NCBI GenBank assembly: GCA_017860575.1
Contig: JAGDMS010000005.1
Coordinates: forward strand, 1-38,233
Length of the DNA: 38,233 nt
Direction: 5' to 3'
Origin: Deltaproteobacteria bacterium
Lineage (GTDB): Bacteria > Desulfobacterota > Binatia > HRBIN30
The translations under genes and the position numbers were made by a program. The notes under the pieces are model-generated. The model made no database searches. It was not told the DNA's origin and saw only the letters and a program-made list of their open reading frames with translations. This document shows, one piece after another, positions 762-33,015 of the stretch. Position 1 is the stretch's first letter; each line of letters starts with the position of its first letter.

Positions 762-1475
762 ATGATGCGACGCATGGGATCGGCGGGTCTGGGGTTCGGG
801 CAGCTGTTCGCCCTCATCTTTGGATTTCTGATCACTTCGGCACTGATCTTTCTCTTCGGCATCTGGATTGGCCGGGCCTGGATGGAAAGCCGTCTGGTTC
901 AGGAGGAACGCATCGTCCGGCTGCCGGTCCCAACGCCGGTGGGAGCAATGGAAGAAGAGCGCAGCGAAGAAGCCGATCTGTCCTTCTACCGCGAGTTGAA
1001 AGAGAAAGCGTATCAACGGCTCCAGGACGCGCCGACCCCGATTCCGGCGACGCCGGCTCGCGCCGCCCAGCAAGCGAGCGCTCCGCCCGCGGCGCCGACA
1101 ATTACACGTCACCCGATCACCGAGAAGCCCAAGAGTCCCGCGACGGTCGCCCCTCCCGTGGCAACGAAGCGAAAGGAAACCCCGACACCGGCATCGGCGA
1201 AGCGAACGGAACCGACGCCACCCGCGAAAGAGTGGGCTGACGCGGGCTGGACGGTCCAGGTCAATGCCACCACCAACGTCCAACAGGCGACCGAACTCGC
1301 CCGCAGCCTGCGCGCCAAGGGTTACGAGGCCTACACGGTGCAAGCACCGCTGCACGGGCAGACATGGTACCGGGTCCGCGTCGGGCGATTTCCGACCAAG
1401 GAGCAGGCCCAGGAACTCGAAACACAACTCAAGACCAAAGAACACTTGGACAGTGCCTACGTGACCCCGCAATAA
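762..1475 (+). CDS. Membrane-anchored SPOR-domain protein
   Basis: A 237-residue bitopic inner-membrane protein. Residues about 10-38 form one transmembrane segment, residues 45-160 are a Pro/Ala/Thr-rich linker, and residues 163-237 are a SPOR domain (WTVQV at its start, then a central Tyr-Arg-Val-Arg-Val-Gly strand). SPOR domains bind denuded glycan strands of septal peptidoglycan, so a role at the division site or in cell-wall handling is likely, as in FtsN/DamX-type proteins. That role is family knowledge, not shown here. Two ATGs stand in tandem (762 and 765) after a GAGG at 751-754 that overlaps the argS stop. The stop codon shares a base with the trpE start. argS-SPOR neighbours are common in deltaproteobacterial-type genomes. 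Confidence 0.85.
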   Translation: MMRRMGSAGLGFGQLFALIFGFLITSALIFLFGIWIGRAWMESRLVQEERIVRLPVPTPVGAMEEERSEEADLSFYRELKEKAYQRLQDAPTPIPATPARAAQQASAPPAAPTITRHPITEKPKSPATVAPPVATKRKETPTPASAKRTEPTPPAKEWADAGWTVQVNATTNVQQATELARSLRAKGYEAYTVQAPLHGQTWYRVRVGRFPTKEQAQELETQLKTKEHLDSAYVTPQ

Positions 1476-2950
1476 TGTACACGCCTGACTTCGACCAATT
1501 CTGCGCGCTGGCACGGCAGGGGAATTTGATCCCAGTCTACCGGGAGATCCTCGCCGACTTGGAAACGCCGGTATCCGCGTTTCTCAAGATCGATGACGGC
1601 GGCGATGCCTTTCTCCTGGAAAGCGTCGAGGAAGCGGAGAAATGGGGACGGTACAGTTTCCTCGGGGTGGCGCCCGAGCTCGTCTTTTGCAGCAAAGGAC
1701 GTCGCGTCTGGATCGGGCCGCCCGGCGCCACCGTGCCGGCAGCGGAGGTGGATGATCCCCTCGTGGCCGTGAAAGAGCTGCTCGGCCGCTATCGACCCGT
1801 CACGGTCAAGGGTGTCCCCCCGTTCTCCGGGGGCCTCGTGGGATACGTCGGATACGACTCGGTCCGATTCTTCGAGCGCCTCCCCGAGCGGACGGTGGAC
1901 GACCTCGACCTCCCGGATTTGTACCTCATGCTGGTCGATACGCTCCTGCTCTTCGACAACACGGCCCAGAAGATCAAAGTGGTCGGTCACGTGTTCACCG
2001 ATGACAGCACCGACTTGCGCGCCGCCTATGATGCGACCTGCGCCAAGATCGATACGCTGATTGGCCGCCTGGGTCGCCCGGCCAAGGTGCCCACCCGCCT
2101 GCGCACGCCGGACGGCCCACCGCCGATGACCTCCAACATCCGCCCCGAGCAATACCAGGCGATGGTGCGGCACGCCAAAGAGTACATCGTTGCCGGGGAC
2201 ATCATCCAGGTAGTCCTAGCGCAACGGTTTCAGAGCCCGTTGCGCGCGCACCCCTTCAACATTTACCGCTGCCTGCGCACCGTGAATCCGTCGCCGTACA
2301 TGTTTTATCTCCGCCTGGGCCCACAGACGCTGATCGGCTCATCTCCGGAGGTGATGGTCCGGCTGGAAGGACGTGAACTCACGGTCCGCCCCATCGCCGG
2401 TACCCGACCGCGTGGCACCGAGGAGCGGCGCGACAGCGAACTCGAGCAGGAACTGACTTCGGACCCGAAAGAGATCGCCGAGCACATCATGCTGGTCGAC
2501 CTCGGCCGCAACGACGTCGGGCGCGTCGCCGCCATCGGCAGCGTCGCGGTCACCGAACGCATGATCGTCGAGCGCTACTCCCACGTCATGCACCTCGTGT
2601 CCAATGTGCGCGGAGAATTAGCCGAGGGCAACGACTGCTTCGACGCCTTCCGTGCCACGTTTCCCGCCGGCACGTTGACTGGCGCGCCGAAAATCCGTGC
2701 CATGGAGATCATTGAGGAACTGGAGCCGACGCGGCGGGGGATCTACGGCGGCGCGGTTGGCTACTTTTCCTTTTCCGGCAACATGGACACCTGCATCACC
2801 ATCCGTACCATTCTGGTGAAGGATGACACGCTGTACATCCAAGCCGGCGCGGGGATTGTCGCCGACTCAGATCCGGAACGAGAACACGCGGAATGCGTCA
2901 ACAAGAGCCGCGCGATGATCCAGGCGGTGCGCCTGGCGGAGGAGATGTGA
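1475..2950 (+). CDS. trpE: Anthranilate synthase component I
   Basis: Aminase subunit of anthranilate synthase. It converts chorismate plus ammonia to anthranilate in the first committed step of tryptophan synthesis, with TrpG supplying ammonia. The start chosen (ATG 1475, overlapping the upstream TAA by one base) gives 491 residues, the usual TrpE length; a longer frame from 1364 would lie inside the SPOR gene. LLES at residues 47-50 matches the tryptophan feedback-inhibition element of TrpE, favouring TrpE over PabB. The C-terminal chorismate-binding half shows [28 protein letters not shown] and [13 protein letters not shown]. It is followed by trpG after 91 bases, the largest gap inside the trp cluster. 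No leader peptide or attenuator is visible upstream, since trpE starts directly on the previous gene. Confidence 0.97.
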
Positions 2951-3041
2951 TCGTGACCTGCGTGCGTGCATGCTGCTCGGACGAGAGCAGGCACACGCGA
3001 CCGGTCCCCGAGCACGACTCACGAGAACGAGCCACATCGTT

Positions 3042-3623
3042 ATGTTACTGATGATCGACAATTACGATTCGTTCACCTACAACCTGGTTCAGTACCTGGG
3101 CGAGTTGGGTGCGGACGTACGTGTCTTTCGCAACGACGCCATCACCCTCAATCAGATTGCAGCGTTGCATCCCGACCAGATCGTCATTTCGCCGGGGCCG
3201 TGCACCCCGTTGCAGGCCGGCATTTCGGTCGACACGATCCGTCGCTTCGCCGGCCACATCCCCATCCTCGGCGTCTGCCTGGGCCACCAGAGTATCGGCG
3301 CGGCGTTCGGTGGCAAGATCGTCCGGGCCGCACGCTTGATGCACGGGAAGACGTCTTCCATTCATCACGACGGGCGCACCATCTTTCGCGGCCTCAGTCA
3401 GCCGTTCGAGGCAACGCGATATCATTCGCTCGTCATCGAGCGCTCGACGCTGCCGGCGTGTCTCGAACTCAGCGCCTGGACGCCTGACGAGGAGATCATG
3501 GGTGTGCGGCATCGCCAGCATTTGGTCGAAGGCATCCAGTTCCATCCCGAATCCATCCTCACCATCGAAGGCAAGCGCCTGCTGAAGAACTTCCTCGATC
3601 TGACGCGGGGCACTCCCAGGTAA
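3042..3623 (+). CDS. trpG: Anthranilate synthase component II (glutamine amidotransferase)
   Basis: Class I glutamine amidotransferase subunit that hydrolyses glutamine and passes ammonia to TrpE. In many bacteria the same protein also serves PabB in folate synthesis. The 193-residue product begins [14 protein letters not shown], the family N-terminus. The catalytic triad is visible: Cys79 in GVCLGHQ, and His168 and Glu170 in FHPES. The oxyanion-hole stretch SPGPC is at residues 50-54. The start at 3042 is chosen because a longer frame from 2970 would add 24 unrelated residues; ATG 3051 is the other option. The ribosome-binding site is weak. Placed between trpE and trpD, with folC later in the same run, a shared TrpG/PabA role is possible but not shown. 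Confidence 0.95.
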
Positions 3624-3627
3624 GACG

Positions 3628-4641
3628 GTGGACATCCGCGCGGCAATAGCGAGAACCGTCGCCCAGCAATCGCTCAGCGAGGCGGAGATGGAGGCGGTCA
3701 TGCGTCAACTGATGGCGGGGGACGCGACACCGGCACAGATCGGCGCGCTGCTGGTCGCCTTGCGCATGAAGGGCGAGACCGTCGCTGAAATCACGGGAGC
3801 GGTGCGTGCCATGCGGGCATTGGCGGCGCCGCTGCGGCTGCGCTCCGGTTCCGTGGTCGACACCTGCGGAACTGGCGGGGATCTGCGCGGCACCTTCAAC
3901 ATCTCGACCACCGCCGCACTGATCGCGGCCGGCGCGGGGCTCACCGTCGCCAAACACGGCAATCGGGCAGTCTCGGGCACCGTCGGTGGTGCGGATGTGC
4001 TGGAATCGTTGGGCGTGAAGATCGATTTGCCGCCGGACGACGTCGCGCGCTGCATCGACGAGGTGGGGATTGGCTTCCTGTTCGCCCCGGTATTCCATCC
4101 GGCCATGCGTCACGCCGCCGCACCGCGTCGCGAACTCGGGTTGCGTACCATCTTCAACCTGCTGGGACCGCTCTCGAACCCCGCCGGCGCACGCCACCAG
4201 GTCGTCGGCGTCTTCGCGGCCGAGTGGACCGAACCGCTGGCACAGGCGTTGGGCCGCCTTGGCAGCGTGCACGCTCTGGTCGTCCATGGAGACGACGGGC
4301 TGGACGAACTCTCGCTGGCGGCTCCGTCGCACATTGCCGAGTGGAAGGACGGCGGCGTCCGCAGCTTCCGGATCACACCCGAACAATTCGGCTTCCAGCG
4401 CTGCTGCGATAGCGACCTCAGTGGGGGCGACCGCGACAGCGCCGCCGGCATTGTCCGTAGCATCGTGGAGGGTGTGCCGGGCCCGCGCACCGACATCGCG
4501 GTCCTGAACGCCGCTGCGGCCATCTATGTCGGTGGTGTCGCACCGTCCATCGCGGCGGGGATCGATCTGGCGCGGGATGCCGTCGCCAGCGGGCGTGCGC
4601 GCCGGAAACTGGCACAGATGATCGAGTTCACCAATCGATGA
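3628..4641 (+). CDS. trpD: Anthranilate phosphoribosyltransferase
   Basis: Transfers phosphoribose from PRPP to anthranilate, the second step of the pathway. The 337-residue protein starts with GTG four bases after the trpG stop. It shows the family's small helical N-terminal domain, then the PRPP-binding DTCGTGGD (residues 78-85), NISTT, KHGNR (109-113), and the anthranilate-site stretch HPAMRHAA followed by FNLLGPLSNPA. A DGLDELS stretch carries the Asp-Glu pair that binds Mg2+ in characterised enzymes. One oddity: the loop after KHGNR reads AVSGTVGGADVLESLG, where most TrpD proteins have a Lys/Arg and extra Ser (SSKSGSAD or similar). The stop overlaps the trpC start (ATGA, 4638-4641), which indicates translational coupling. 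Confidence 0.96.
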   Translation: MDIRAAIARTVAQQSLSEAEMEAVMRQLMAGDATPAQIGALLVALRMKGETVAEITGAVRAMRALAAPLRLRSGSVVDTCGTGGDLRGTFNISTTAALIAAGAGLTVAKHGNRAVSGTVGGADVLESLGVKIDLPPDDVARCIDEVGIGFLFAPVFHPAMRHAAAPRRELGLRTIFNLLGPLSNPAGARHQVVGVFAAEWTEPLAQALGRLGSVHALVVHGDDGLDELSLAAPSHIAEWKDGGVRSFRITPEQFGFQRCCDSDLSGGDRDSAAGIVRSIVEGVPGPRTDIAVLNAAAAIYVGGVAPSIAAGIDLARDAVASGRARRKLAQMIEFTNR

Positions 4642-5417
4642 TCCTCGACGACATTGTCCGCGACAAACGCGCTGATTTGAACCGCGCCAAGGCGACCGTT
4701 TCAGTTGCCGAACTCGAGCGCCGACCGCTGTTCCATGCGGCACGCCGCGACTTGCGGGAAGCCCTCGCGCAGCACCGCCGTGCGATCATCGCCGAGGTGA
4801 AGAAAGCATCCCCGTCGAAGGGGGTGATCCGTGCGGACTTTGACCCCGTCGGGATTGCCATCAGTTACGCGGCTCACGGTGCGGCCGCGATCTCCGTCCT
4901 GACTGAAGAACGCTATTTTCAGGGGCATCTCGACTATCTCGCCGCGATCCGCGCTGCCGTGACGCTGCCCCTGCTGCGCAAAGACTTTCTGTTCGACGGC
5001 TACCAACTCGTCGAAGCGCGTGCCTTTGGTGCGGATGCGGTGCTCCTGATCGTGGCGATTTTGCCGGATGCGCTACTGCGCGAACTGTTGGCGGTGGCGA
5101 ACCGATTGCAGCTGAGCGCGCTGGTCGAGGTACACGACCGGGGCGAGTTGGAACGGGCCATTGCGTGCGGGGCGCGCTTGCTGGGCATCAACAACCGCGA
5201 TTTGCGGACCTTCCGTACAAGCCTGGCCGTCAGCGAAGCGCTCGCGCCCTGCGTTCCCGCTGACATGGTGGTGGTCGCCGAGAGCGGCATTGAACACGGT
5301 GCGGACATCGAGCGTCTCGAACGTGCCGGCGTGCGGGCCTTTCTGATCGGCGAGACCTGCATGCGCGCCGTCGATCCCGGCACCAAACTTTCGGAATTGC
5401 TGGCGGGTCGGGGCTGA
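4638..5417 (+). CDS. trpC: Indole-3-glycerol phosphate synthase
   Basis: Closes the indole ring: CdRP is converted to indole-3-glycerol phosphate with loss of CO2 and water. The 259-residue single-domain TIM barrel carries all expected catalytic positions: Glu53 and Lys55 in AEVKKASPSKG, Lys115 in LLRKDF, Glu164 in LVEVHD, Asn185 in GINNRDL, and Glu215-Ser216 in VAESGI. The phosphate-binding end reads AFLIGE. It is not fused to TrpF, unlike in Escherichia coli; trpF follows as a separate gene two bases after the TGA. The start codon overlaps the trpD stop. Confidence 0.97.
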   Translation: MILDDIVRDKRADLNRAKATVSVAELERRPLFHAARRDLREALAQHRRAIIAEVKKASPSKGVIRADFDPVGIAISYAAHGAAAISVLTEERYFQGHLDYLAAIRAAVTLPLLRKDFLFDGYQLVEARAFGADAVLLIVAILPDALLRELLAVANRLQLSALVEVHDRGELERAIACGARLLGINNRDLRTFRTSLAVSEALAPCVPADMVVVAESGIEHGADIERLERAGVRAFLIGETCMRAVDPGTKLSELLAGRG

Positions 5418-5419
5418 CC

Positions 5420-6020
5420 GTGTTGGGACCGGTGCGCGTAAAGGTCTGCGGCATCACCACGCTGGACGACGCCCGTGCGGCGCTCGATGCCGGAGCCGCG
5501 GCGCTGGGCTTCAACTTCTATTCACCCAGTCCGCGGTTTGTGCGGCCCGACGTGGCAGCCGGGATCATTGCGCAGCTGCCGCGCACGACCTGCAGCGTCG
5601 GCGTGTTCGTGGACGCTTCACGACCGGAAGTCTCGCGGATCGCCGAGCAAACAGGACTCACCACGCTCCAGTTCCACGGCAACGAAGCCCCCGACTTCTG
5701 CACGGCGTGGCCGCAGAAAGTCATCAAGGGGCTCCGCGTACGCGATCGGTATGCCGCGGCCGAGGCGCTGCGCTACTCGGTTGATTTCATCCTCGTCGAT
5801 GCGTATGTCGAGGGCCAGTTCGGCGGCACGGGGAAGCGTATCGGTGTCGAACTGCTGGAAGGTTTCGACCGCGAACGGTTGATCCTCGCGGGCGGATTGT
5901 CCCCGGACAATGTCGCCGAGGCCGTCCGCACCGTACGGCCGTTCGCGGTTGATGTCGCAAGCGGGATCGAACGGGCGCCGGGCAAGAAGGACTGGGAGCT
6001 GATGAGGAGGTTTATCGTTC

Positions 6021-6037
<17 letters not shown>
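5420..6037 (+). CDS. trpF: Phosphoribosylanthranilate isomerase
   Basis: Amadori isomerisation of phosphoribosylanthranilate to CdRP, the step before TrpC. It is a 205-residue TIM barrel with catalytic Cys10 in VKVCGIT and Asp127 in LVDAYV. The conserved [18 protein letters not shown] and DVASGIE stretches are also present. The start is GTG at 5420, two bases after the trpC stop; the family N-terminus K-x-C-G-I fits it. The last 17 bases overlap trpB, and the strong AGGAGG used by trpB (6005-6010) lies inside the trpF coding sequence. Confidence 0.95.
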
Positions 6038-7214
<1,177 letters not shown>

Positions 7215-7218
7215 ACAG

Positions 7219-8064
7219 ATGAATCGCATCGACCAGACTTTTCGCGCCTTGCGGCACCGGCAAGAGGCCGCGCTCATCCCGTTCTTGACGGCGGGAGATC
7301 CCGACTTGGAAACGACGCTGGAACTGATGCGTGCTGCGGTGGATAACGGGGCGGACCTGCTTGAAGTGGGGGTTCCCTTCTCGGATCCATCGGCTGACGG
7401 CCCGGTGCTGCAGCGATCGTTGGCGATCGGGCTGCAGGCCGGCGCCTCGCTCCCACGGGTGCTCGCGCTGATCAGCGATTTCCGGCGCGAATCGCAGTTG
7501 CCGGTGATCTTGTACGGGTATTACAACCCCATTTTCCATTACGGCGTCGAGCGGTTTGCCGTCGACGCCCAGAAGGCTGGGGTGGATGGTGTGTTGGTGG
7601 TCGATCTCCCGCCGGAGGAGGTGGGGGAGCTACTGCCACACCTGCGCCGGGTGGGCATCCATTTCATTTTCCTGCTGGCACCCACGAGCGGACCCGATCG
7701 CGTCCGTAAGGTCCTCCGCCACGCCAGTGGGTTCATTTACTACGTTTCCGTGACCGGGGTCACCGGGGTCCGGCCCATGCAACCAGAGTGCGTCCAACCG
7801 GCGATAGACACGTTGCGCCAAGCCACCAACCTTCCGATTGGTGTCGGATTTGGCATCTCGACACCGGAGCAAGCAGCCGCCGTCGCCCTATTCGCCGACG
7901 CCGCGGTCGTCGGCAGCGCCATTATGCGCCTCGTCGACAGCTCTCGGAGTGGAGGGAGCGTTGCCGAGGTCGGTGCCTTTATCCGACAGTTAAAGGACGC
8001 AGTGCAGGCCGTCCGTAACACCGCAACCGCGACTCAGGTCCATTCGGATTCTCATGGCCGCTAG
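7219..8064 (+). CDS. trpA: Tryptophan synthase alpha chain
   Basis: Cleaves indole-3-glycerol phosphate to indole and glyceraldehyde-3-phosphate; the indole is channelled to TrpB. The 281-residue TIM barrel has catalytic Glu49 (LLEVGVPFSDP) and Asp60 (SADGPVLQ) at exactly the canonical residue numbers. The YYNP loop (in YGYYNPIF), the GVTGVR segment and the GFGIS phosphate-binding turn are also present. The ATG at 7219 lies four bases after the trpB stop. The last 11 bases overlap folC. In many deltaproteobacterial-type operons accD sits between trpA and folC; here it is absent. Confidence 0.97.
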   Translation: MNRIDQTFRALRHRQEAALIPFLTAGDPDLETTLELMRAAVDNGADLLEVGVPFSDPSADGPVLQRSLAIGLQAGASLPRVLALISDFRRESQLPVILYGYYNPIFHYGVERFAVDAQKAGVDGVLVVDLPPEEVGELLPHLRRVGIHFIFLLAPTSGPDRVRKVLRHASGFIYYVSVTGVTGVRPMQPECVQPAIDTLRQATNLPIGVGFGISTPEQAAAVALFADAAVVGSAIMRLVDSSRSGGSVAEVGAFIRQLKDAVQAVRNTATATQVHSDSHGR

Positions 8065-9370
8065 CGCATACGCCGATGTGCTCGCCTCACTGTATCGTCT
8101 CGAGGCGGCACGCGGGATGGACTTCAAACTCGAGCGCGTAGCACTCGCGTTGAAGAGTCTGGGAGATCCACAACGCCGCTTCGCCGCAATCCATGTCGCC
8201 GGAACCAACGGCAAAGGATCCGTTGCCGCCATGTTGCACGCGATCTGTACCGCCGCGGGTTACCGAGTCGGCCTTTACACGTCGCCGCACCTGGTTAGCT
8301 TCACCGAACGCATTCGGGTGGGGACAGACACGATCTCCGAGGCGGAGGTGGTGGCGCTGGCGCACGACATCCGCAGCGCCGCCACCGTGCGTGGTATCGA
8401 CCTCACCTTTTTTGAATTCGTCACGGTGATGGCGTTTCTTCACTTTGCCCGTTGCGGGATCGACCTGGCAATCGTCGAAGTCGGACTGGGTGGACGGTTG
8501 GACGCCACCAATGTAATCGACCCCGCCGTCGCCGTCATCACCTCCATCGGCCTGGACCACCAAGAATTCCTCGGCGAGACGCTGGCGTCGGTAGCATTCG
8601 AAAAGGCGGGTATAATCAAGCCCGGAACGCCGGTCGTCGTGGGCAACGTGCCGCCCGAAGGCGAGAGCGTGATCGAGGATATCGCCGCAGCGCGCTCCGC
8701 GCCGTTGTACCGATGGGGCCGGGATTTCAGCACCAGCCGTGGCATGACGTTTGGTTTCCACGGTATGGGACTCGAGCTGACCGATTTGCGAACGACTCTG
8801 CGCGGCAGCTTCCAAAACGAGAACGCCGCCACCGCGATTGCGGCAGTGTTACAGTTGCCACCCACCTTCCCTGTAGGCATCGACGCGATCCGCCTGGGGC
8901 TGGAGTCGGTACGCTGGCCGGGCCGCCTCGATGTGGTCGCCGCGAATCCACTCGTCGTCCTCGACGGCGCCCACAACCTCGATGGGATCAGGGCAATAGC
9001 CGCTGAACTCCCGGCTATCGTCTCGGGACGCCCCATACACCTGCTCTTTGGCGTCATGCGTGATAAACAGTGGGGGCCGATGGTCGACACAATCGCACCG
9101 CTGGTTTCCGATGTCACGGTCACGACCGTGTTGCCACCACGCGGAGAATCCGCTGCGGCACTGGCAGCGGCGTTCTCGAGACACTGTGCCGTCCGACTGA
9201 TCGCAGACCCCCAGGCCGCGCTCGCAGAGTTGCTACATACCGTCCCCGATCGGGAAAGCATCGTGGTCACAGGGTCGTTGTTTCTCGTAGGCACGGTCTA
9301 CCCCTACTTCTTGCAGCGGCACGGGAAGCGCACCTTGTTCAGCGGCGCAGGCGCAACACCGCTCCCCTAG
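8054..9370 (+). CDS. folC: Folylpolyglutamate synthase / dihydrofolate synthase
   Basis: Mur-ligase-family enzyme that adds glutamate to dihydropteroate and/or to folates with ATP hydrolysis in the cytoplasm. The 438-residue length is normal. Visible motifs are the P-loop AGTNGKGS (residues 49-56), YTSPHL with FTERIR, EVGLGGRLDATN, the SIGLDHQEFLG stretch that binds Mg2+-ATP, and VLDGAHN in the C-terminal domain. The start overlaps the last 11 bases of trpA, so the two are probably translationally coupled. Whether it is bifunctional cannot be told from sequence. lptD follows after 13 bases. Confidence 0.95.
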   Translation: MAASAYADVLASLYRLEAARGMDFKLERVALALKSLGDPQRRFAAIHVAGTNGKGSVAAMLHAICTAAGYRVGLYTSPHLVSFTERIRVGTDTISEAEVVALAHDIRSAATVRGIDLTFFEFVTVMAFLHFARCGIDLAIVEVGLGGRLDATNVIDPAVAVITSIGLDHQEFLGETLASVAFEKAGIIKPGTPVVVGNVPPEGESVIEDIAAARSAPLYRWGRDFSTSRGMTFGFHGMGLELTDLRTTLRGSFQNENAATAIAAVLQLPPTFPVGIDAIRLGLESVRWPGRLDVVAANPLVVLDGAHNLDGIRAIAAELPAIVSGRPIHLLFGVMRDKQWGPMVDTIAPLVSDVTVTTVLPPRGESAAALAAAFSRHCAVRLIADPQAALAELLHTVPDRESIVVTGSLFLVGTVYPYFLQRHGKRTLFSGAGATPLP

Positions 9371-9383: not shown

Positions 9384-11615
9384 ATGGGCGAGAGGCGTCT
9401 CCTAGCAGCGGCGTTGGCATTGAACGCCATTTTGAGCGCCGATGCACGTGCCCAGGGTCAGCCCCGCCCGCTTTTCGAACAACAGGAAATCGCGATTTCC
9501 GCGGACGAAATGCGCTACGAGCAGCGTACCAACACCATGGTGGCGCACGGCGATGTTGTCATTACGCGGGGCGAGACAGTCTTGCGCGCCGACGAGGTCC
9601 GGCTCAATCGTTCGACCAATGAAGCGGATGCCAACGGGAATGTCCGGTTGACCGACCCCGAAGGCACGATTGTCGCCGATGCCTTGCGTCTGAATCTCGA
9701 CGAGGAAACCGGCCTCCTCCAACATGCGCACATCCAGTCGCGACGCATGCAGTATTCCCTTTCCGGCGCGCGCATGGAAAAGGGGCTCGGCCAGACGTAC
9801 CACATCGAGGACGGCCAGTTCACTACCTGCCATTGCACGGAAGAACCGCCAAGCTGGAGCATCGCCGGACGTGATCTGGACGTCACGGTCGGGGGCTACG
9901 GCAAGCTAACCGGGGGAACGTTCAAGGTGCTGGATGTCCCAGTTCTGTATCTCCCGCGCGCCATATTCCCGGTGCAACAGGAACGCCAGAGCGGCCTTTT
10001 GATCCCGCGCTTCGGGGTCTCCAACCGGCGTGGCTTCCAGATGCTTCTACCGGCGTACTGGGCGATCAGCAAGAGCCAGGATGCCACGTTGGGCCTCGAT
10101 GTGGAGACCAGCGCCCGGGCCGGCGTTGTTGGCGAGTACCGCTACGCGGTGAACCGCGAGACCAGCGGGTTGATCGACGCGTCGTACTTCAATGAATCCT
10201 TCCGGGGCGCCGGCCGCACAAGTGAATTCCAGGCAACCACCCCGGAGAACCGCTGGAGCGTGACAGCGGCGCACGTGCAGCCGCTTCTCGGTGCCAGCCA
10301 CCTTTACGCCGATGTCTTCCTCGTCGGTGACGACTTGTTCTTGCGCGACATCAACACCTATGCCTTCGAACACTCCCACGAGGTGGCCTTACGGACCCTC
10401 CCATTCACTCAGACCCACCTGGCTGCGGTTCAACTTTGGGATCGCCTCGCGCTCAAGTCCGAAGGCACGTACTACCAAGACCTGACAGGTTTTGACTCCT
10501 TCGCACTGCAGCGGGCACCCGATATCGACCTCTGGGGACAGGCGCTCCTCGGACCCACCGTTCTCGGAGAACTCTCCGCAAGTGCGGTCGACTTTCAGCG
10601 TGCTCGCAGCGTCGACGGTTTTCGCGTGGATCTCGAACCCGCCGCCGTGGTGCCACTGCCATTGGGGCGTCTCGGTTTCGGTTCCGTCCGGGCGGCGGTC
10701 CGCGAGACCGCGTACCATTTGACCGACAACGTGCTCTCGGACACCGGCCAAGAGCTCCGCACCAATCAATCGCGCGAGTTGTTCCAACTGCAGGCTGATC
10801 TGGGGACCTCAGTCAGTCGAATCTATCCCGTACACTCCTTCGGCCTCGACAAAATCAAGCACTTGCTCGAGCCCGCCGTGGAGTACCTTTACGTTCCAGC
10901 CGTTTCGCAAAACGACCTCCCCTTCTTCGACGGCATCGACCGCATCAATCAGCGCAATCTCATCTCGTACGGCATCGTCAATCGTATCCTCGGAAGGTTC
11001 ACCGGCCCGTCGACGAGCGACGCGGGCCCGGTAAATCCCCAATCACAGATACGAGAACTCGGCCGCCTCAGCATCAGGCAGAGCTTCGACATCAACCGTG
11101 AGATCAACCCGCTCCAACGTGGCAGGGCTGCGGACCACTTCTCAGACATCCAGATCGATGGCCGAGCCAATCCCAGCCGCGCGCTGTCCCTGCTCTTCCA
11201 CATGGACTACGACGCCGGCACCACCAACGTCTCCGCAGCGAATGTTGGCCTCTTCCTAGAGGATCCCCGCCCGAGGCAGCGGACGGCCAAACTAGAGACC
11301 TTCAACGTCCGGAGCAGCATCGGGGTCGTGTACCGCTACCAGACACAGAACCAGCTGCAAGAGGTCGATCCTCGGATCCTCCTGCGCATGACCGACTGGG
11401 CCGCGTTCTTCTACTCCAGCCGCTACGACGTCGTCGCCAACCGATTTCTCGACAACTACTTCGCTCTCCGGCTGCTCTCAACCTGCGACTGCTGGTCCTT
11501 TGATATCGGGGTCACCAATAAGACCAACCCCCAGGAGGTTGAGGTCCGCGCACAGCTCACCCTCGTAGGAATCGGCTCGACCAGCTCAAGCCCACGCAGC
11601 CCGGCAACCCCTTGA
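9384..11615 (+). CDS. lptD: LPS-assembly outer-membrane protein LptD
   Basis: Outer-membrane barrel that, with the lipoprotein LptE, inserts lipopolysaccharide into the outer leaflet. The 743-residue precursor has a signal peptide (about residues 1-23, ending ADARA). It then has an N-terminal OstA/LptA-like beta-jellyroll (about 30-150, with ISADEMRYEQ and VRLNRSTNEADANGNV) and a large beta-barrel. Cysteines are Cys149 and Cys151 (TCHC) after the jellyroll and Cys701 and Cys703 (CDCW) near the C-terminus. This mirrors the two interdomain disulfides known from E. coli LptD, but each pair is spaced C-x-C. It ends the trp-folC run. No clear terminator follows, only a short GGCCC/GGGCC stem with no T-run. 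Confidence 0.92.
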   Translation: MGERRLLAAALALNAILSADARAQGQPRPLFEQQEIAISADEMRYEQRTNTMVAHGDVVITRGETVLRADEVRLNRSTNEADANGNVRLTDPEGTIVADALRLNLDEETGLLQHAHIQSRRMQYSLSGARMEKGLGQTYHIEDGQFTTCHCTEEPPSWSIAGRDLDVTVGGYGKLTGGTFKVLDVPVLYLPRAIFPVQQERQSGLLIPRFGVSNRRGFQMLLPAYWAISKSQDATLGLDVETSARAGVVGEYRYAVNRETSGLIDASYFNESFRGAGRTSEFQATTPENRWSVTAAHVQPLLGASHLYADVFLVGDDLFLRDINTYAFEHSHEVALRTLPFTQTHLAAVQLWDRLALKSEGTYYQDLTGFDSFALQRAPDIDLWGQALLGPTVLGELSASAVDFQRARSVDGFRVDLEPAAVVPLPLGRLGFGSVRAAVRETAYHLTDNVLSDTGQELRTNQSRELFQLQADLGTSVSRIYPVHSFGLDKIKHLLEPAVEYLYVPAVSQNDLPFFDGIDRINQRNLISYGIVNRILGRFTGPSTSDAGPVNPQSQIRELGRLSIRQSFDINREINPLQRGRAADHFSDIQIDGRANPSRALSLLFHMDYDAGTTNVSAANVGLFLEDPRPRQRTAKLETFNVRSSIGVVYRYQTQNQLQEVDPRILLRMTDWAAFFYSSRYDVVANRFLDNYFALRLLSTCDCWSFDIGVTNKTNPQEVEVRAQLTLVGIGSTSSSPRSPATP

Positions 11616-11936: not shown

Positions 11937-11969
11937 AAAAAAAGGGCAGGAGCGGAGCTCCTGCCCTTT
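11937..11969 (-). terminator. Intrinsic terminator of the secreted-protein pair
   Basis: Perfect 13-bp stem (11941-11953 pairing with 11957-11969) and a 3-base loop, followed on the minus strand by seven T residues (complement of 11937-11943). It lies 24 bases past the stop codon of the minus-strand gene ending at 11994. The A-run lies on only one side, so it should act on minus-strand transcription only. Confidence 0.93.
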
Positions 11970-11993
11970 CGTAGAACCAAACGATCGGAGCGG

Positions 11994-13298
11994 CTACTGA
12001 CCGGGAACCACTCCTGGGTAAATGGTCAGCGTGTCGCCCACACCGGTGCCCGGAACGAAATACGTGTTGGCCGCGGAGGAGCACACGCCATTCGGACACA
12101 ACGCCCCACCAGTGAAGAACGCCTCAGACACTGCAAGGACCCTCCTGTCTGAGGTCGCGCTGGCAACCGGCCGTATCCTCGTCTGACCAGTCATCGTGCC
12201 CTGAACATTTGCATTGAAGATTGAGTAGTAGTTGTTGCTCTGCACGTTGCCGGGGCGCGTATCGATATCGGACAGCTGCACTTCCTTGAAGCAGCTGAAC
12301 GACGTCGACGTGGAGAACCGCTGTTCGAATTCATTGTATACCAGGAACTGCAGGGTCGCACTCCTTGGGGTCTGGGTCGCCAGATCTTCTGAGCACGGAA
12401 CCACGGTCAGATCGGTAACCACATTGCCAACCGGAGCAGGGGCTCCTCCCCAGTGTGTGATCACCGGGGCATTGTCGAACATATGGTCGAGTATCACGAC
12501 CTTCGGGCAGCCGTTGTATTGCGGCGTTGCCCCGCCGATGCTCAACACGGGGTTGCCGTTCGCATCCGTCGGAGCCGGGAAGTTTGCTGTCGCTTGCAAC
12601 CCGATGCCGTTGTACTTACGGGCGTCGACAATGGAGGTGCTGGGGATGTGGCGCACAATCGTAGCCTCGCCCTTGAGGTCGCCCCCAAAGTTGTTCGCCG
12701 GGTCGAGGCCGGACGTCGGTGCACCGCTCACAGGATCCACCTGCACGCACTTGATTTCGCCGACCCAGGGATCGGTCTGCGAGTTGGCGACGTAGGACGT
12801 ACCGTTCGAACCGGTACAGCCTGGCCCTTGCCCCCGCACTCCGCAGGGCAGGCCAGACAATCCCTCGCTGGCCCTCCACGAAATCGGCTGACGCTTGGTG
12901 AGTAGAAGGGGAAAGTCGTTCTCTACCACCTTGGGCGTGCAGGGCGTCAAGCAGCTTGCACCCGTTGCGCAACCGCCCTGTCCCTCCGGCCGGCCCTCGG
13001 CAGCAGCCTCGGCCGTACAAGCAACGCCGCTATTGCTGCAGCGCGAGGTCGTATCGATGATGAAGCAGTGTGCCGCCACCACCGAATTCGAGGTGTTCGT
13101 CAATTGCACTTCAGTGTCCGTTGGAACGCCGAACAACGTTCCGCTGGTGTCCACAACAATCTTGGGAAAAATCAGGACTGCCCCGGGCTTGTCAGAGGCG
13201 ACGTCAGCCTGTACCACTCTGCCCGCGCCCGCAAGCACCAGCAGCCCGACGGCTCCAAGGAGCATCGCCCGCCGCAAATTCCCCGTCATCGTGCTCAT
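11994..13298 (-). CDS. Secreted cysteine-rich protein of unrecognised family (paralog A)
   Basis: A 434-residue protein whose function I do not recognise. The start is set at 13298 (ATG) because an AGGAG lies seven bases upstream and a typical signal peptide follows (residues 1-31, ending VVQA before Asp32); a longer frame adds 13 residues without support. The mature part is rich in predicted beta strand and has 14 cysteines (an even number, suggesting disulfides in the periplasm or outside). It aligns by eye over its whole length with the next upstream gene: NTSNS, then Cys78-Phe, KCVQVD, a CPK/LDHM box, VPCSEDL, and YNEFEQ with STST. Compared with paralog B it carries an extra Cys-rich stretch at about residues 84-122 and a second at 150-165. 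It is second in a two-gene operon and ends at a strong terminator. Surface or matrix display is inference. Confidence 0.8.
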   Translation of the reverse strand: MSTMTGNLRRAMLLGAVGLLVLAGAGRVVQADVASDKPGAVLIFPKIVVDTSGTLFGVPTDTEVQLTNTSNSVVAAHCFIIDTTSRCSNSGVACTAEAAAEGRPEGQGGCATGASCLTPCTPKVVENDFPLLLTKRQPISWRASEGLSGLPCGVRGQGPGCTGSNGTSYVANSQTDPWVGEIKCVQVDPVSGAPTSGLDPANNFGGDLKGEATIVRHIPSTSIVDARKYNGIGLQATANFPAPTDANGNPVLSIGGATPQYNGCPKVVILDHMFDNAPVITHWGGAPAPVGNVVTDLTVVPCSEDLATQTPRSATLQFLVYNEFEQRFSTSTSFSCFKEVQLSDIDTRPGNVQSNNYYSIFNANVQGTMTGQTRIRPVASATSDRRVLAVSEAFFTGGALCPNGVCSSAANTYFVPGTGVGDTLTIYPGVVPGQ

Positions 13299-13344
13299 CA
13301 CGTTCTCTCCTTTCCTCACCGCCAACAGGTCGCTCACTCTGGCC

Positions 13345-14436
13345 TCAGAACGGCAATGGTATGATCAGGTGATCGGCCTTGCCGGTACGTGGATCGCCGT
13401 TGCCGTTTGTGGCTGCGTCGAAGCGGTTGCCTTCAGTCTGCAGGTTGAATGCCGCCGCCCCGGCACCAGCGCGGAACTCTTCCGCGAGCCCGACAACGGC
13501 ACCGTTGCCGTCCGCCGGAGTGATTCTGGTGTAGGCACTGGCCGTTCCAAGCGCACTGTAGGTGAAGGGGTTATTCGGCCCCAGCACGCCGATCTGGCCA
13601 AGTGTCGTGTTCAGATAGCAGTTGACGGTCGTGCTCGTGCTGAGGTGCTGCTCAAATTCGTTGTAGATCGAGAACTGCACAATGACTGATTTTGGAATCT
13701 GGTTCTCCAAATCTTCGCTACAAGGCACCAGGGTCAACTCGGTGTTGATTGGCAGACCGGAGATTGGGTCGTTAGCTGGTGCGGCGGTTGAATTCTCCGC
13801 CATGTGATTCAGCAACAGCGTGTCGGGGCAGGCACTGTACATTCCACCCCGGTTGGTCGGCGTCAGGTCGTACACGAGGTCTCCAAGACCGGTGCTGTTG
13901 GGATCGGCCGCGTTCATGTCCGTGTTCCCCTGGAAAGACAGCGCGTTGTACTCGCTGACGTCGCCGGTGATGCTCCGCAGCACCGCGTCGCCCTTGAGGG
14001 CGTTGCCACGAAGCGGCGCGCCAGACAAATCAACCTGCACGCACTTCACCTCACCCACGAACCCGAGCGGCGCTGGCGGGACCGCCCCCGTGAGGAAACC
14101 GCCGTCACTGTACATGCGGCCACCGCTGGCAGTCCAATGCGTGGGATGCTGCTTCGTCAGGAAGAACTCAAAATCCGTTTCGCTGCAGTTTTGCCGCGGC
14201 GCACCGTTGACGTAAAAGCATTTCACGCGCACCATCGAATTGCTGGTGTTCGCAATCCGAATAATCGTATCGCGGGTTCCGTCCCAGATCACCTTGGGAT
14301 AAACCAGGACCGACCCACTTCTTTCTGTGGAGAGGTCAGTCGCATAGTCTGCGGAGGCCGCACCCGCAAAGGGTAGCAGTGCCATCGTCGCTATGCCCAA
14401 CGTCCACAAAGCCCGAACCGACTTTACCATACGCAT
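13345..14436 (-). CDS. Secreted protein of unrecognised family (paralog B)
   Basis: A 363-residue protein, the shorter and upstream member of the tandem pair; function not recognised. The start is set at 14436 (ATG), with AGGAG seven bases upstream (complement of 14444-14448). The signal peptide covers residues 1-29 and ends ASA before Asp30; the longer frame from 14514 has an untypical charged extension. Six cysteines (73, 84, 132, 203, 239, 273), five of them clearly matched in paralog A. Shared blocks: GSVLVYPKV against GAVLIFPKI, IANTSNS against LTNTSNS, FFLTKQHPTHW against LLLTKRQPISW, VKCVQVD, LVPCSEDL and IYNEFEQ. The IANTSNSMVRVKCF stretch resembles an Ig-like beta strand pair common in exported proteins. 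It is 46 bases from paralog A and shares its promoter. Confidence 0.8.
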   Translation of the reverse strand: MRMVKSVRALWTLGIATMALLPFAGAASADYATDLSTERSGSVLVYPKVIWDGTRDTIIRIANTSNSMVRVKCFYVNGAPRQNCSETDFEFFLTKQHPTHWTASGGRMYSDGGFLTGAVPPAPLGFVGEVKCVQVDLSGAPLRGNALKGDAVLRSITGDVSEYNALSFQGNTDMNAADPNSTGLGDLVYDLTPTNRGGMYSACPDTLLLNHMAENSTAAPANDPISGLPINTELTLVPCSEDLENQIPKSVIVQFSIYNEFEQHLSTSTTVNCYLNTTLGQIGVLGPNNPFTYSALGTASAYTRITPADGNGAVVGLAEEFRAGAGAAAFNLQTEGNRFDAATNGNGDPRTGKADHLIIPLPF

Positions 14437-14563: not shown

Positions 14564-14592
14564 CTGATACTGCAACTCCCACCTCTTGTCAA
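14564..14592 (-). promoter_or_regulatory. Sigma-70-type promoter for the secreted-protein pair
   Basis: On the minus strand TTGACA (complement of 14587-14592), a 17-base spacer, then TATCAG (complement of 14564-14569). This is the best housekeeping-type promoter I found in the window. Transcription would start near 14556, leaving a leader of about 120 bases before the ATG at 14436. The leader contains a short hairpin (CGAGC/GCTCG, 14487-14500) and an AGGAG ribosome-binding site. Confidence 0.7.
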
Positions 14593-14774
14593 GCGAAAAG
14601 CCCGATTTTTGCCGGAATCTCGCATTATGGTGACCGGGCCGCCCGCCCGGGTCGGGGCGGCGGCAGTTGCTTGACGGGGCAAGGGCGCTCTGGTAAGCAC
14701 CCCCAACGCTCTTTCCACACCCCTTGAATAAGCACTTTCCGGACACGTCACAGCTTGGCTGAGGAGGAGGTTTG

Positions 14775-16088
14775 ATGAAGCTGTTCTGGAGTAGAGTCAC
14801 ATTGTTTCTTACCGCCACCACGGTAGTCACCGGCTGCCAAGGACTTCGTCAGGAGAGTACGCTATCCGCGAAGCAAAGTACAGGGGCGGCGCCGGTGCGT
14901 TACAGCCCCGCCCGCGACGGCTTGCCCACGGCACGGATCTGGAAGAGCCAGATTGCCTTCGGCGACATCAATGGGGACGGCTTCGCCGATATCGGCGCCG
15001 TCTCCCGACTGGCCGACGGCCCGTGGATCTGGAAGGGCGACGGCAAGGGGCACTGGACAGACGCCTCCGCCGGCTTGCCACGCGAAAGCTTTTGCGGTGG
15101 TGGAATGAAGTTCGGCGATGTCAATCGGGACGGCAAGATGGACGTCGCCATTGCCGATCACTGTCGCGGGGTCTTCGTCTTCCTGGGTGACGGCGACGGC
15201 CACTGGACGAACGCGTCGGGTGGCCTGCCGACGACCGGATCAGAGGACGTAGCGCTCGGCGACTTCAACCATGACGGGTGCCTCGATGTGGTGGCTGTTG
15301 CCGCGGGCGAAGAAGGGATCCGCGCGTACGAAGGGAACTGCAAGGGCGTATGGAAGGAGCACTCGACCGGTCTGCCGCAATCGGAATGGGGCAATGCGCT
15401 CAAGGCAGCCGACGTTGATGGCGACGGTAACGTCGACATCATCGCCGCGTACTCGGCCGGCCCGCGCGTGTATCTGGGCGACGGCAAAGGGAATTGGCGC
15501 GAAGCCTCCGAGGGGCTTCCGGCGCCTGAAATCCACGGCCTCTACTGGGGTGTCGATGTCGGCGACGTGAACGGCGACGGCAAGCTCGACATCGTGTCTG
15601 GAGCGGCCATCCCCGGCGTGGAGGTGTTCATCCAGGAACCGGGACCGAAGTGGCGCAAAGCCGTTGAGGGCATCGTCCCGATGAACGCGCTGGGTGTGGC
15701 CTTCGGCGACCTCAACAACGACGGCAAGTTGGATCTCGTTGCGGTGGGCAAGACGAATCTCGAGGAGATTGGCGGCGTCTACGGCGTGTTCCCGTTCCTC
15801 GGCGACGGCACGGGCAACTGGAAACTAGTGGGCAACACCGGCCTGCCGACCACCGGTAAAGAGCGGACTTGGGGAGTGGGCTTGGCCGACATCGACAAGG
15901 ACGGCGTGCTCGACATCGGCGTCGCTTTCGGGGACGTCCTGTCGCCAACATGGCGCTCTGGCGCCGCGAAGCCCGGCGAAACCGAAAAGGACAAAGCCCA
16001 GGCGGCAGCGGAACAGAAGATGCGCGGTCCGGAGCGTGGCATGTTCGGTTCAATTGAGGTCTGGCGCGGCCAACTCGTCGGCAAGTAA
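14775..16088 (+). CDS. FG-GAP/VCBS-repeat lipoprotein, seven repeats
   Basis: A 437-residue predicted lipoprotein: a hydrophobic signal ending VVTGC with the lipid-bearing Cys21, then seven FG-GAP/VCBS-type repeats. The calcium-binding D-x-N/D-x-D-G loops begin at Asp64, 115, 163, 213, 263, 312 and 372. A GDG-x-G-x-W turn (for example FLGDGTGNW) lies between most of them. Seven repeats fit a complete seven-bladed beta-propeller. The C-terminal 45 residues are charged and outside the repeats. Such propellers bind calcium and usually mediate surface contacts; the ligand cannot be told. The start is ATG 14775 after GAGGAGGAGG (14761-14770); a TTG three bases earlier is less likely. It is divergent from the secreted pair and monocistronic, closed by its own terminator. 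The 14437-14774 spacer otherwise holds the minus-strand promoter but no clear plus-strand promoter. Confidence 0.85.
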   Translation: MKLFWSRVTLFLTATTVVTGCQGLRQESTLSAKQSTGAAPVRYSPARDGLPTARIWKSQIAFGDINGDGFADIGAVSRLADGPWIWKGDGKGHWTDASAGLPRESFCGGGMKFGDVNRDGKMDVAIADHCRGVFVFLGDGDGHWTNASGGLPTTGSEDVALGDFNHDGCLDVVAVAAGEEGIRAYEGNCKGVWKEHSTGLPQSEWGNALKAADVDGDGNVDIIAAYSAGPRVYLGDGKGNWREASEGLPAPEIHGLYWGVDVGDVNGDGKLDIVSGAAIPGVEVFIQEPGPKWRKAVEGIVPMNALGVAFGDLNNDGKLDLVAVGKTNLEEIGGVYGVFPFLGDGTGNWKLVGNTGLPTTGKERTWGVGLADIDKDGVLDIGVAFGDVLSPTWRSGAAKPGETEKDKAQAAAEQKMRGPERGMFGSIEVWRGQLVGK

Positions 16089-29119: not shown

Positions 29120-30211
29120 ATGTGGGTTGAAATCGGCATCGCCGCGATCAAGACAGGGGCCATTCTGGGCGTGGTGATGGCGCTCGCGGGCGTGTTCGGG
29201 TGGTTCGAGCGTAAAGTGAGCGCCTATATGCAGGATCGCGTCGGCGCCAACCGCTGCAGCGTCTTTGGATTCGCCGGGGCCGGCCTGATCAACACCATCA
29301 TGGCCGATCCGCTGAAATTCGCCACGAAGGAAGACTTCGTTCCAGCCGGCGTCGATCGCTTGCTGCACACGCTGGCGCCGTGCGTAAACTTCTTCCCGGT
29401 ATTGGTGGCCTTTGCCGCCATCCCCTTCGGCGATGTCCTCGAGGCGGGGGGTCGCAGTATCAACCTGCAGGCGGTGCCGCTCAACGTGGGCGTGCTCTAC
29501 ATCCTCGCCATGGTCTCACTCAGCGTCTACGGGGTGGTGCTGGGCGGTTGGGCATCGAACAATCGCTTTTCGCTGCTCGGGGGCATCCGCGGCTCCGCGC
29601 AGATGATCTCGTACGAACTGGCCATGGGGCTGTCGATCGTCGCCATGGTGATGACCTACGGCACCCTCGACTTACAGACGATGGTGCGGGCGCAGGGCCA
29701 TCTGATCGGTGGCTGGTTGCCGGCGTGGGGTGTGCTGTACCAGCCGTTGGCGTTTCTGCTGTTCCTCACCGCCGGGATGGCGGAGACCAAGCGCTCGCCC
29801 TTTGACTTGCCGGAGGGGGAGTCGGAACTGGTGGCCGGCTATTTCATCGAATTTTCCGGCGTGAAGTATCTGATGTTCTTCATGACCGACTTCATCGAGG
29901 TGGCGGTGGTCGCCGGCTTGCTGACCACCATGTTCTTCGGCGGTTGGCAGGTCCCCTACCTCATGCGCGATGGCTTCCACTTCCCATTGGGCGTCACGGT
30001 GGCACTGCCACACCTTCTGGTCGTGGCCCTGCAAATCGTCAGCTTTCTACTCAAGGTCGTGTTTTTTGGCTGGCTGCAGTGTTTGATTCGATGGACGCTG
30101 CCGCGCATCCGCTACGATCAACTGATGGGATTGGGCTGGAAGGGGTTGCTGCCGGTATCGCTGGCCAACGTGTTGGCAACGGCGGTGGTCATCCTGGCGT
30201 GGCAGGCGTAA
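29120..30211 (+). CDS. nuoH: NADH-quinone oxidoreductase subunit H
   Basis: A 363-residue membrane subunit that forms part of the quinone chamber and connects the peripheral arm to the pump modules. Visible: FERKVSAYMQDRVGANR in the first loop, ADPLKFATKED, and the highly conserved AETKRSPFDLPEGESELVAGY loop. About eight transmembrane helices. In standard operons nuoI follows; here nuoJ starts two bases after the TAA. So the transition is H to J with no ferredoxin-like subunit gene. Confidence 0.97.
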   Translation: MWVEIGIAAIKTGAILGVVMALAGVFGWFERKVSAYMQDRVGANRCSVFGFAGAGLINTIMADPLKFATKEDFVPAGVDRLLHTLAPCVNFFPVLVAFAAIPFGDVLEAGGRSINLQAVPLNVGVLYILAMVSLSVYGVVLGGWASNNRFSLLGGIRGSAQMISYELAMGLSIVAMVMTYGTLDLQTMVRAQGHLIGGWLPAWGVLYQPLAFLLFLTAGMAETKRSPFDLPEGESELVAGYFIEFSGVKYLMFFMTDFIEVAVVAGLLTTMFFGGWQVPYLMRDGFHFPLGVTVALPHLLVVALQIVSFLLKVVFFGWLQCLIRWTLPRIRYDQLMGLGWKGLLPVSLANVLATAVVILAWQA

Positions 30212-31044: not shown

Positions 31045-32943
31045 ATGCACGAGGCTGCGACAACACCCGTCCACTATCTCTGGCTGATTCCGCTTTTCCC
31101 CGCGCTCGGCGTCGTCTTCAATGCCTTTATCGGCCCCCGCCTCGGCAAGAGCGCCATCAGCGTGGTGGCACCGGCTGCGGTAGGCGCAGCGTTCCTGACC
31201 GGCTGCTACGCGTTCAGCACGCTATTACAGCTGCCCCCGGGAAGCGCGTTGGTGCAGCAGGTCTATCCGTGGATCACGGCCGGCACCTTGCAGGTTGACG
31301 TGGCCTTCCGGATCGACGCCTTGTCCGCAGTCATGGTGTTGATCGTCAGCGGCGTGGGGTTTCTGATCCACGTGTACTCGGTCGGCTACATGGCGCACGA
31401 TCCCAGCTTCGCGCGGTATTTCACCTATCTCAACCTGTTCACTCTGGCGATGCTGACGCTCGTGCTGGCGGACAATCTCCCTTTGCTGTTTGTCGGCTGG
31501 GAAGGCGTCGGGTTGTGTTCCTATCTGCTGATTGGCTTTTGGTACACCGTCGACGCCAACGCCGACGCGGGCAAGAAAGCGTTCATCGTCAACCGCATCG
31601 GTGATGCCGGATTTCTGCTCGGGCTCTTCCTGCTCTTCTGGAATCTGGGCAGCGGGGCGCACTCATTGAGTTTCGGCGAAATATCGGAGCACGCGAAAAC
31701 CATTCCCTCCGGCACTCTCACGGCGATTGCCTTGCTGTTCTTCGTCGGCGCCACGGGCAAGTCGGCGCAATTGCCGTTGTACGTCTGGCTGCCGGACGCG
31801 ATGGCTGGCCCGACGCCCGTCAGCGCGCTCATTCACGCCGCCACCATGGTGACGGCGGGCGTATACATGATCGCACGCCTGCACGTCCTGTATCTTCTCG
31901 CCCCCTCGGCCCTGACGGTGGTCGCAACCATTGGCGCACTGACAGCGCTGTTCGCTGCCACGATCGGCCTCTTGCAGAATGACATCAAGAAGGTCCTGGC
32001 CTACTCCACGGTGAGTCAGCTCGGATACATGTTTCTCGGTGTCGGCGTCGGCGCTTTCGGTGCCGGCATCTTCCACCTCATGACGCATGCCTTCTTCAAA
32101 GGGCTTCTCTTCCTCGGGGCCGGCAGCGTTATCCACGGCATGGGCGGCGAACAGGACATGCAGAAGATGGGCGGGCTGCGCCACCACATGCCGATTACGT
32201 TCTGGACGTTCGTGTTCGCCACGATCGCAATCACCGGCATTCCCGGCTTCGCGGGGTTTTTCAGCAAAGACGAGATTCTGGCGCAGGCCTTTGGCAGCCC
32301 GCACGGCAGTCCCTGGTTATGGGCTATCGGCTTCGTCGCTGCGGGACTGACGTCCTTTTACATGTACCGGTTGCTCTTTCTCACGTTCTTCGGCGACTGC
32401 CGTGCGGACGACCGCACGCGGCATCACCTGCACGAGTCGCCACTGACCATGACACTTCCGCTCATGGTACTGGCCGTGCTCTCCGCCTTGGGCGGGTACA
32501 TCCACCTCCCCGCATTTCTGGAACCCGTCTTCGGGCACGAAGCCGGTCATATCGAGGCGACCACCGAGCACCTGTTGATGGCGGCGTCGGTAGCGGTGGC
32601 GCTCGCCGGACTCGGACTGGCGTACCTCTTCTACATGGTCCAACCGGGCCTGCCGATGGTGCTCGCGTACAAGGCCGCCGGCCTCTACAACCTGATTTAC
32701 AACAAGTACTGGGTCGACGAACTCTACGATGCGCTGTTCGTGCACCCTACCGTCGTCGTGTCCACATGGTTGTGGCGGATCTTCGACGTCGGCGTCATCG
32801 ACGCGCTGGTGAACGGCACGGCGGAGACGGTTGCGGCCAACAGTGGCCTCTGGCGTCGGTTGCAAACCGGAAACCTGCAGCAGTACGCCGTCTCCATGCT
32901 GTTGGGCGCCGTGGCGATTCTGGGCTATCTCGCGTGGCGGTGA
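31045..32943 (+). CDS. nuoL: NADH-quinone oxidoreductase subunit L
   Basis: A 632-residue antiporter-like proton-pump subunit with the long lateral helix at the C-terminus. Key residues: Glu153 in GWEGVGLCSYLLIGFW and Lys239 in GATGKSAQLPLYVWLPDAMAGPTPVSA, the pair conserved in pumping subunits. Length is normal. It is followed by a 71-base spacer that ends in a 7-bp repeat running into nuoM. Assignment to NuoL rather than Mrp A or a hydrogenase subunit follows from the neighbouring nuoJ and nuoK and the C-terminal part (YNKYWVDELYDALFV). Confidence 0.97.
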   Translation: MHEAATTPVHYLWLIPLFPALGVVFNAFIGPRLGKSAISVVAPAAVGAAFLTGCYAFSTLLQLPPGSALVQQVYPWITAGTLQVDVAFRIDALSAVMVLIVSGVGFLIHVYSVGYMAHDPSFARYFTYLNLFTLAMLTLVLADNLPLLFVGWEGVGLCSYLLIGFWYTVDANADAGKKAFIVNRIGDAGFLLGLFLLFWNLGSGAHSLSFGEISEHAKTIPSGTLTAIALLFFVGATGKSAQLPLYVWLPDAMAGPTPVSALIHAATMVTAGVYMIARLHVLYLLAPSALTVVATIGALTALFAATIGLLQNDIKKVLAYSTVSQLGYMFLGVGVGAFGAGIFHLMTHAFFKGLLFLGAGSVIHGMGGEQDMQKMGGLRHHMPITFWTFVFATIAITGIPGFAGFFSKDEILAQAFGSPHGSPWLWAIGFVAAGLTSFYMYRLLFLTFFGDCRADDRTRHHLHESPLTMTLPLMVLAVLSALGGYIHLPAFLEPVFGHEAGHIEATTEHLLMAASVAVALAGLGLAYLFYMVQPGLPMVLAYKAAGLYNLIYNKYWVDELYDALFVHPTVVVSTWLWRIFDVGVIDALVNGTAETVAANSGLWRRLQTGNLQQYAVSMLLGAVAILGYLAWR

Positions 32944-32994
32944 GAGGGGAAGCGTTCCACGGTCAAGCGCATGCAGCGACTCACTTTTGCGACA

Positions 32995-33014
32995 GGCGAT
33001 AAGCGATAAGCGAT

Positions 33015-33015
<1 letters not shown>
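32995..33015. repeat. 7-bp tandem repeat ending on the nuoM start codon
   Basis: Three units, GGCGATA, AGCGATA and AGCGATA (32995, 33002, 33009). The last A is the first base of the nuoM ATG. It fills the place where a ribosome-binding site would be, and no purine-rich AGGAG-like motif is seen just before nuoM. Same unit length as the repeat at 23431 but a different sequence. Confidence 0.8.

Follow-up and report, generated by a model that had tools for sequence, protein, structure and literature searches.

Within the window, a 38,233-nucleotide stretch of Binatia DNA, two adjacent minus-strand genes encode proteins that an earlier note, made from the letters alone, had described as tandem secreted paralogs of an unrecognised family. 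The locus raises the question of what fold these proteins adopt, why two of them stand side by side and what they might do once exported. Translation confirmed a homologous pair, P0001 (363 aa) and P0002 (434 aa), encoded 46 bp apart on the same strand, aligned along their length with 31% identity (E 1e-39) and carrying the shared motifs that had been named. The features of the locus are listed below, where A and B denote two groups in a tree of the family.

9384..11615, plus strand: LptD-like outer-membrane protein, convergent neighbour, assigned from its sequence (cluster c4, in 8 orthologous loci)
11940..11970, minus strand: intrinsic terminator of the AB operon (14-bp stem with 8 GC pairs, loop of 3, T-run)
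11994..13298, minus strand: P0002, B-type gene, 434 aa (translation; B group in the tree)
11997..12536, minus strand: P0002 domain 2, ASRT/TM1070-like fold (predicted alone; Foldseek, VIA-align)
12537..13205, minus strand: P0002 domain 1 with Cys-rich insertion, bounds approximate (alignment; homology to P0001 domain 1)
13206..13298, minus strand: P0002 signal peptide, approximate (read from the sequence)
13345..14436, minus strand: P0001, A-type gene, 363 aa (translation; clade A in the tree)
13348..13848, minus strand: P0001 domain 2, mature residues 168-334, second beta-sandwich (well-predicted strands; homology to P0002 domain 2)
13924..14349, minus strand: P0001 domain 1, mature residues 1-142, ASRT/TM1070-like beta-sandwich (VIA-align of the model)
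14350..14436, minus strand: P0001 signal peptide, cleavage expected after ASA at residue 29 (read from the sequence)
14564..14592, minus strand: possible promoter, TTGACA-17-TATCAG (by eye only)
14772..16088, plus strand: FG-GAP repeat protein, divergent neighbour (Pfam FG-GAP_3, E 8.6e-46; cluster c5, in 8 loci)

The strong terminator reported for this operon is present. Its promoter is less clear than had been stated, as a scan for the sigma-70 consensus upstream of P0001 found none and the candidate listed above was picked out by eye. Both proteins are predicted to be exported through signal peptides whose AxA sites were read by eye; an AxA-like cleavage site occurs in 121 of 122 relatives, and a pattern match to a lipobox-like motif in 3. 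Neither protein has a sequence match in Pfam, NCBIfam, PHROGs or the sequences of the PDB, so that the family was indeed unrecognised in the sequence databases searched. Pfam and NCBIfam scans of 88 family members likewise returned nothing meaningful, the scattered EGF, EB and WAP matches being read as the Cys-rich insertion. A comparison of domain 1 with domain 2 by hhalign did not detect a sequence duplication within the protein.

Structure models gave the family a place. Mature P0001, modelled by AlphaFold with 88 sequences (model m0d7323729f48; pLDDT 88, pTM 0.89), was predicted to be nearly all beta, and its domain 1 superposed by VIA-align on 1nc7 (TM1070) with a Z of 10.6 and an rmsd of 2.0 over 106 residues; the ASRT entry 2ii8 scored 6.9 and the next unrelated structure 4.9. 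Domain 2 of P0002, modelled alone (m2755c0284e37; pLDDT 87), returned 1nc7 first in Foldseek (E 6e-5, prob 1.00) and scored a Z of 10.5 against it over 114 residues in VIA-align, with four ASRT entries at 7.2-7.4 and the next unrelated structure at 4.8. Rows for viral capsid proteins, meprin and beta-agarases in the fold searches were weak, lay far below the ASRT rows and were set aside. The structure comparison that the earlier note had proposed thus yielded the same top match for two separately modelled domains that hhalign does not recognise as duplicates, which counts in favour of the ASRT fold. According to the models, each protein consists of two beta-sandwich domains, and P0001 domain 1 and P0002 domain 2 have the ASRT/TM1070 (ASRAH) fold, an eight-stranded beta-sandwich; P0001 domain 2 and P0002 domain 1 are assigned as ASRT-like by homology to the modelled domains.

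A search of the source genome with PF07100 gave no match at E <= 10, and across the phylum PF07100 was found in 2 of 395 genomes, none of them within the order. Homology to ASRT by sequence profile was too weak to claim (hhalign Prob 0.8, E 0.07), with a sensible register; we therefore claim the fold and not membership of PF07100. On the models, a distant relation to the ASRAH superfamily is probable. ASRAH domains are predicted to bind sugars, and those that are secreted come as dyads or tetrads; ASRT-like proteins are found in sugar metabolism operons (de Souza, Iyer and Aravind 2009, PMC2739507). A Trp starts strand 1 of these domains, and a nearly invariant Asn ends strand 2 before a tight turn; in the ASRT-like subfamily this strand reads SHEshChhN, with the His and Cys contacting ligand, while other ASRAH families also do without H and C (PMC2739507). 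TM1070 itself is a tetramer with a cleft that lies partly at the dimer interface (PMC2739507). A text search on the ASRAH domain found no description beyond this one.

Conservation computed over 122 near-full-length members reproduces part of this pattern. Conspicuous among the conserved features are T28, F60 and a D-T-x-x-Q/R-x-x-N strand, whose cleft positions on strand 2 hold D in 114 of 122 members, T in all 122 and Q or R in 107. An Asn ends the strand before the tight turn in both domains (N34 in 119/122 for domain 1; N230 in 107/122, with Asp in 14, for domain 2). Where ASRAH has the Trp that opens strand 1, the family has L, V or I (position 15, 121/122), and a neighbouring Pro is present in 118/122. 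Four cysteines occur in all 122 members and a fifth in 118; our guess is that these form intradomain disulfides, leaving one that could link A to B. The counts of 6 cysteines in P0001 and 14 in P0002 had been given correctly, and the evenness that had been singled out is incidental: totals in the family run from 4 to 33, with insertions like that rich in Cys in P0002 domain 1 accounting for part of the variation.

How widely is the family spread, and in how many copies? A first genome-wide peptide-pattern scan with P0001 as query found no relative, and a scan with the tighter A2 alignment recovered them. The further copies in the same genome that had been suggested as a check exist: the source genome holds about 14, in five clusters on contigs C551 (the window), C163, C523, C454 and C238. 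Copy numbers here count search hits, some 13 candidates having been scored in each genome. On this count at least 11 scored copies occur in each of the 15 genomes of the order, which span 9 genera and 4 families. In the rest of the class, remote relatives were found in only 4 of 133 genomes, with one to three each, and a wider sample of the phylum gave one clear remote match each in two genomes of one other family and a marginal match in two more. The matches include the Candidatus Binatia records HRbin30, NC_groundwater_1022, OFTM157, RBC016 and PL24a_bin.3. Stretches of genomes G003, G009 and G011 agree letter for letter with the NC_groundwater_1022, OFTM157 and RBC016 records, and over 9.6 kb the HRbin30 record shares about 76% identity with G004; the order probably corresponds to the HRBin30 order of the Binatota genome paper (PMC8262859). 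In one genome (G007), two members (L033:8181-9435 and L036:8559-9696) each appear as a pair of overlapping frames, which a frameshift or an assembly error could produce. The family is thus order-specific, multicopy and exported. The Binatota genome paper (PMC8262859) gives order-level traits, and the terms 'extracellular', 'S-layer' and 'secret' are absent from its text; a literature search for papers on Binatia surface proteins found none.

The arrangement of the copies explains why the two genes of the window are not mere duplicates. In a tree of 122 members, 58 form a clade, A, with a support of 0.998, and the remainder make up B. Within arrays, the first and third genes fall in A and the second and fourth in B. 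Among 40 arrays with at least two members, 73 neighbouring pairs alternate and 4 are of the same type; 20,000 shuffles of the labels gave 38.8 +/- 4.4 alternating pairs, with a maximum of 56. An A gene comes first in 37 of the 40 arrays. Departures from the pattern are few and comprise BB in L057 and L063, ABABB in L064 and third A genes in L032, L037, L041 and L051. These results show that A and B are two groups that nearly always alternate, A usually upstream. Of the claim of tandem paralogy, the homology of the neighbours stands, and the two genes belong to anciently separate groups that have been kept paired.

Two features of the arrays bear on how the alternation arose. A-A and B-B distances between units correlate positively in each of six genomes (r 0.31-0.77; permutation p <0.05 in three), the pattern that duplication of entire AB units would be expected to leave, and such duplication could yield alternation without any complex. 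The arrays also sort into orthologous locus types with conserved neighbours, so that the independent events are fewer than the pair counts suggest.

The neighbourhood of the window array is conserved as well, in that the FG-GAP gene stands beside the arrays orthologous to it. The scanned neighbours of this array, among them the FG-GAP protein and ABC exporters, include no mucin-like or cohesin protein. Elsewhere in the window, tryptophan synthesis genes at 1364-9370 (anthranilate synthase component I, a PLP enzyme and tryptophan synthase alpha) adjoin a Mur-ligase-domain protein and the LptD-like gene, and complex I subunits at 29120-30211 and 31045-36077 (NADHdh and three Proton_antipo_M proteins) are followed by a metallo-beta-lactamase-fold protein at 36358-37338.

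One other array locus type is accompanied by mucin-like secreted proteins of about 480-1065 aa, with 62-78% Thr/Ser/Pro in their richest 100 residues. Most of them have dockerin-like repeats, and they share a conserved C-terminal domain that has no Pfam match. In L036, L054, L062 and L066 they flank the array on either side, and in L040 and L045 they are found upstream of it (examples are at L054:955-2973, L054:8847-11456, L040:1727-4402 and L045:1855-5049). One array neighbour carries a Dockerin type I match at 28.6 bits against a Pfam cut-off of 22.9. Family members are themselves fused to Thr/Ser/Pro-rich stretches in L020, L049, L056 and L063, and those in L056 and L061 have EF-hand/dockerin-like C-termini with scores below the Pfam cut-offs.

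The mucin-like C-terminal domain is found, in multiple copies, in all 15 genomes that represent the order and in 0 of the 133 others of the class, and several proteins that bear it combine Thr/Ser/Pro-rich stretches with dockerin-like repeats. Cohesin at E <= 1e-4 is present in 13 of 15 genomes of the order versus 5 of 133 others, and in 15 of 15 at a looser threshold. In the source genome itself (L121, on C480), a cohesin match lies beside dockerin-like repeats and a Thr/Ser/Pro-rich protein. Cohesin-bearing proteins were also seen in L116-L120, some with Thr/Ser/Pro-rich stretches and dockerin-like repeats nearby. All of these are traits of one order, and their shared distribution alone is therefore no proof of partnership.

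What, then, might the A and B proteins do? The explanation we favour, tentatively and at slightly less than even likelihood, is that they are an order-specific exported pair with the ASRT fold that forms a four-domain, glycan-binding heteromer in an extracellular coat. The two domains of A and the two of B would together make a unit resembling the TM1070/ASRT homotetramer. Glycan would bind to the face of the sheet, in clefts around strand 2, at D27 and the Q/R at 31 (P0001 mature numbering), the D-T-x-x-Q/R-x-x-N segment standing in for the ligand-contacting H-x-x-x-C-x-x-N of ASRT. The ligands may be glycans from the coat of the cell itself, for example the O-glycans of mucin-like Thr/Ser/Pro-rich proteins, which flank one array type and resemble the stretches fused to some members; dockerin-cohesin contacts may hold part of the network together. 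Both the glycan ligand and the partnership of A with B are what we infer from these observations. Several genomes hold about six AB units. A more elaborate version, in which the coat, of a kind not described before, is built of obligate A-B heteromers of ASRT-fold dyads, binds the glycans of the mucin-like proteins, is joined by dockerin-cohesin contacts and exists in locus-specific versions, we regard as unlikely.

The same proteins could instead serve a structural purpose and bind no glycan: in a surface layer, sheath or fibre, the ASRAH-type sandwiches would be building blocks joined through disulfides and contacts between proteins. We consider this unlikely. The many diverged copies that each genome of the order carries, the invariant cysteines and the fact that no conserved catalytic cluster was recognised would all suit such a role, and weak partial matches to capsid proteins and to exosporium ExsF demonstrate no more than that sandwiches of this type are able to form shells. 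Against a purely structural part speak the predicted ligand binding of ASRAH domains elsewhere (PMC2739507) and the strong conservation of the strand-2 cleft. A and B might also act separately, alone or as homo-oligomers with different ligands, the alternation reflecting an ancestral pair amplified as a unit. The mirror-like branching of A and B fits unit duplication, and lone or doubled copies do occur, as in the BB and ABABB arrays. Yet alternation has held in several separate locus types and across four families, the exceptions among 77 neighbour pairs being few. Paralogs that work independently should more often be lost or change places, and we judge separate action to be quite improbable.

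It appears very improbable that the proteins are exported receptors for some small molecule, a nutrient or a signal, and feed transporters or regulators in the manner of ASRT sensors. The sugar metabolism operons of ASRT-like proteins (PMC2739507), the ABC exporters near the window locus and a response regulator beside group-4 arrays (cluster c16) point towards it, but among the genes adjoining the arrays no importer, sensor kinase or TonB-type receptor was recognised, and many array neighbours look like housekeeping genes at fixed sites.

The fold itself is already known, and a family absent from the domain databases searched, a secreted, paired and order-specific branch, now has a place within it. 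In an order known only from environmental genomes, A and B form a paired part of the secretome that is heavily multiplied and present throughout the order, and the findings point to a mucin-like, dockerin/cohesin-bearing cell surface in these bacteria. The ASRAH fold, known mainly from cytosolic sensors, gains a large branch outside the cell, together with a heteromer hypothesis that can be tested.

Set beside ASRT/TM1070 (PF07100), A and B share the beta-sandwich, as the 1nc7 scores show, the Asn at the strand end and conserved polar residues at ligand-type positions of the Asn strand. They differ in being secreted dyads where ASRT proteins are cytosolic single domains, in having neither a PF07100 sequence match nor the strand-1 Trp, in carrying D and Q/R for ASRT's His and Cys (DTxIQxxN) and in their conserved cysteines. 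The secreted actinobacterial ASRAH dyad lipoproteins, as described in PMC2739507, come closer in architecture, being exported with two ASRAH domains per protein, and glycan binding at the cell surface is proposed for both. In contrast to these lipoproteins, most A/B members have no lipobox, the two subfamilies are maintained together in arrays and the lineage is another, diderm one; the WhiB, glycosyltransferase and zincin neighbours of the actinobacterial dyads were not recognised among the A/B neighbour clusters examined.

The remote relatives in other Binatia families (L101, L102, L104 and L105) and in another class of the phylum (L113) are of similar length, with a signal-peptide-like start and a DTxxxxxN-like strand motif, but number one to three matches per genome and form no AB arrays at the loci read; L101 is 21-29% identical to the window proteins or to L104/L105. 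Like the window array, the L104 gene has an FG-GAP-like repeat protein as its neighbour. With non-cellulosomal dockerin/cohesin systems and mucin-like surface proteins the order shares a dockerin neighbour, Thr/Ser/Pro-rich stretches and genomic cohesins. A cellulosome would combine a cohesin scaffoldin with dockerin-bearing glycoside hydrolases; the survey here covered the dockerin and cohesin modules, both of which are present.
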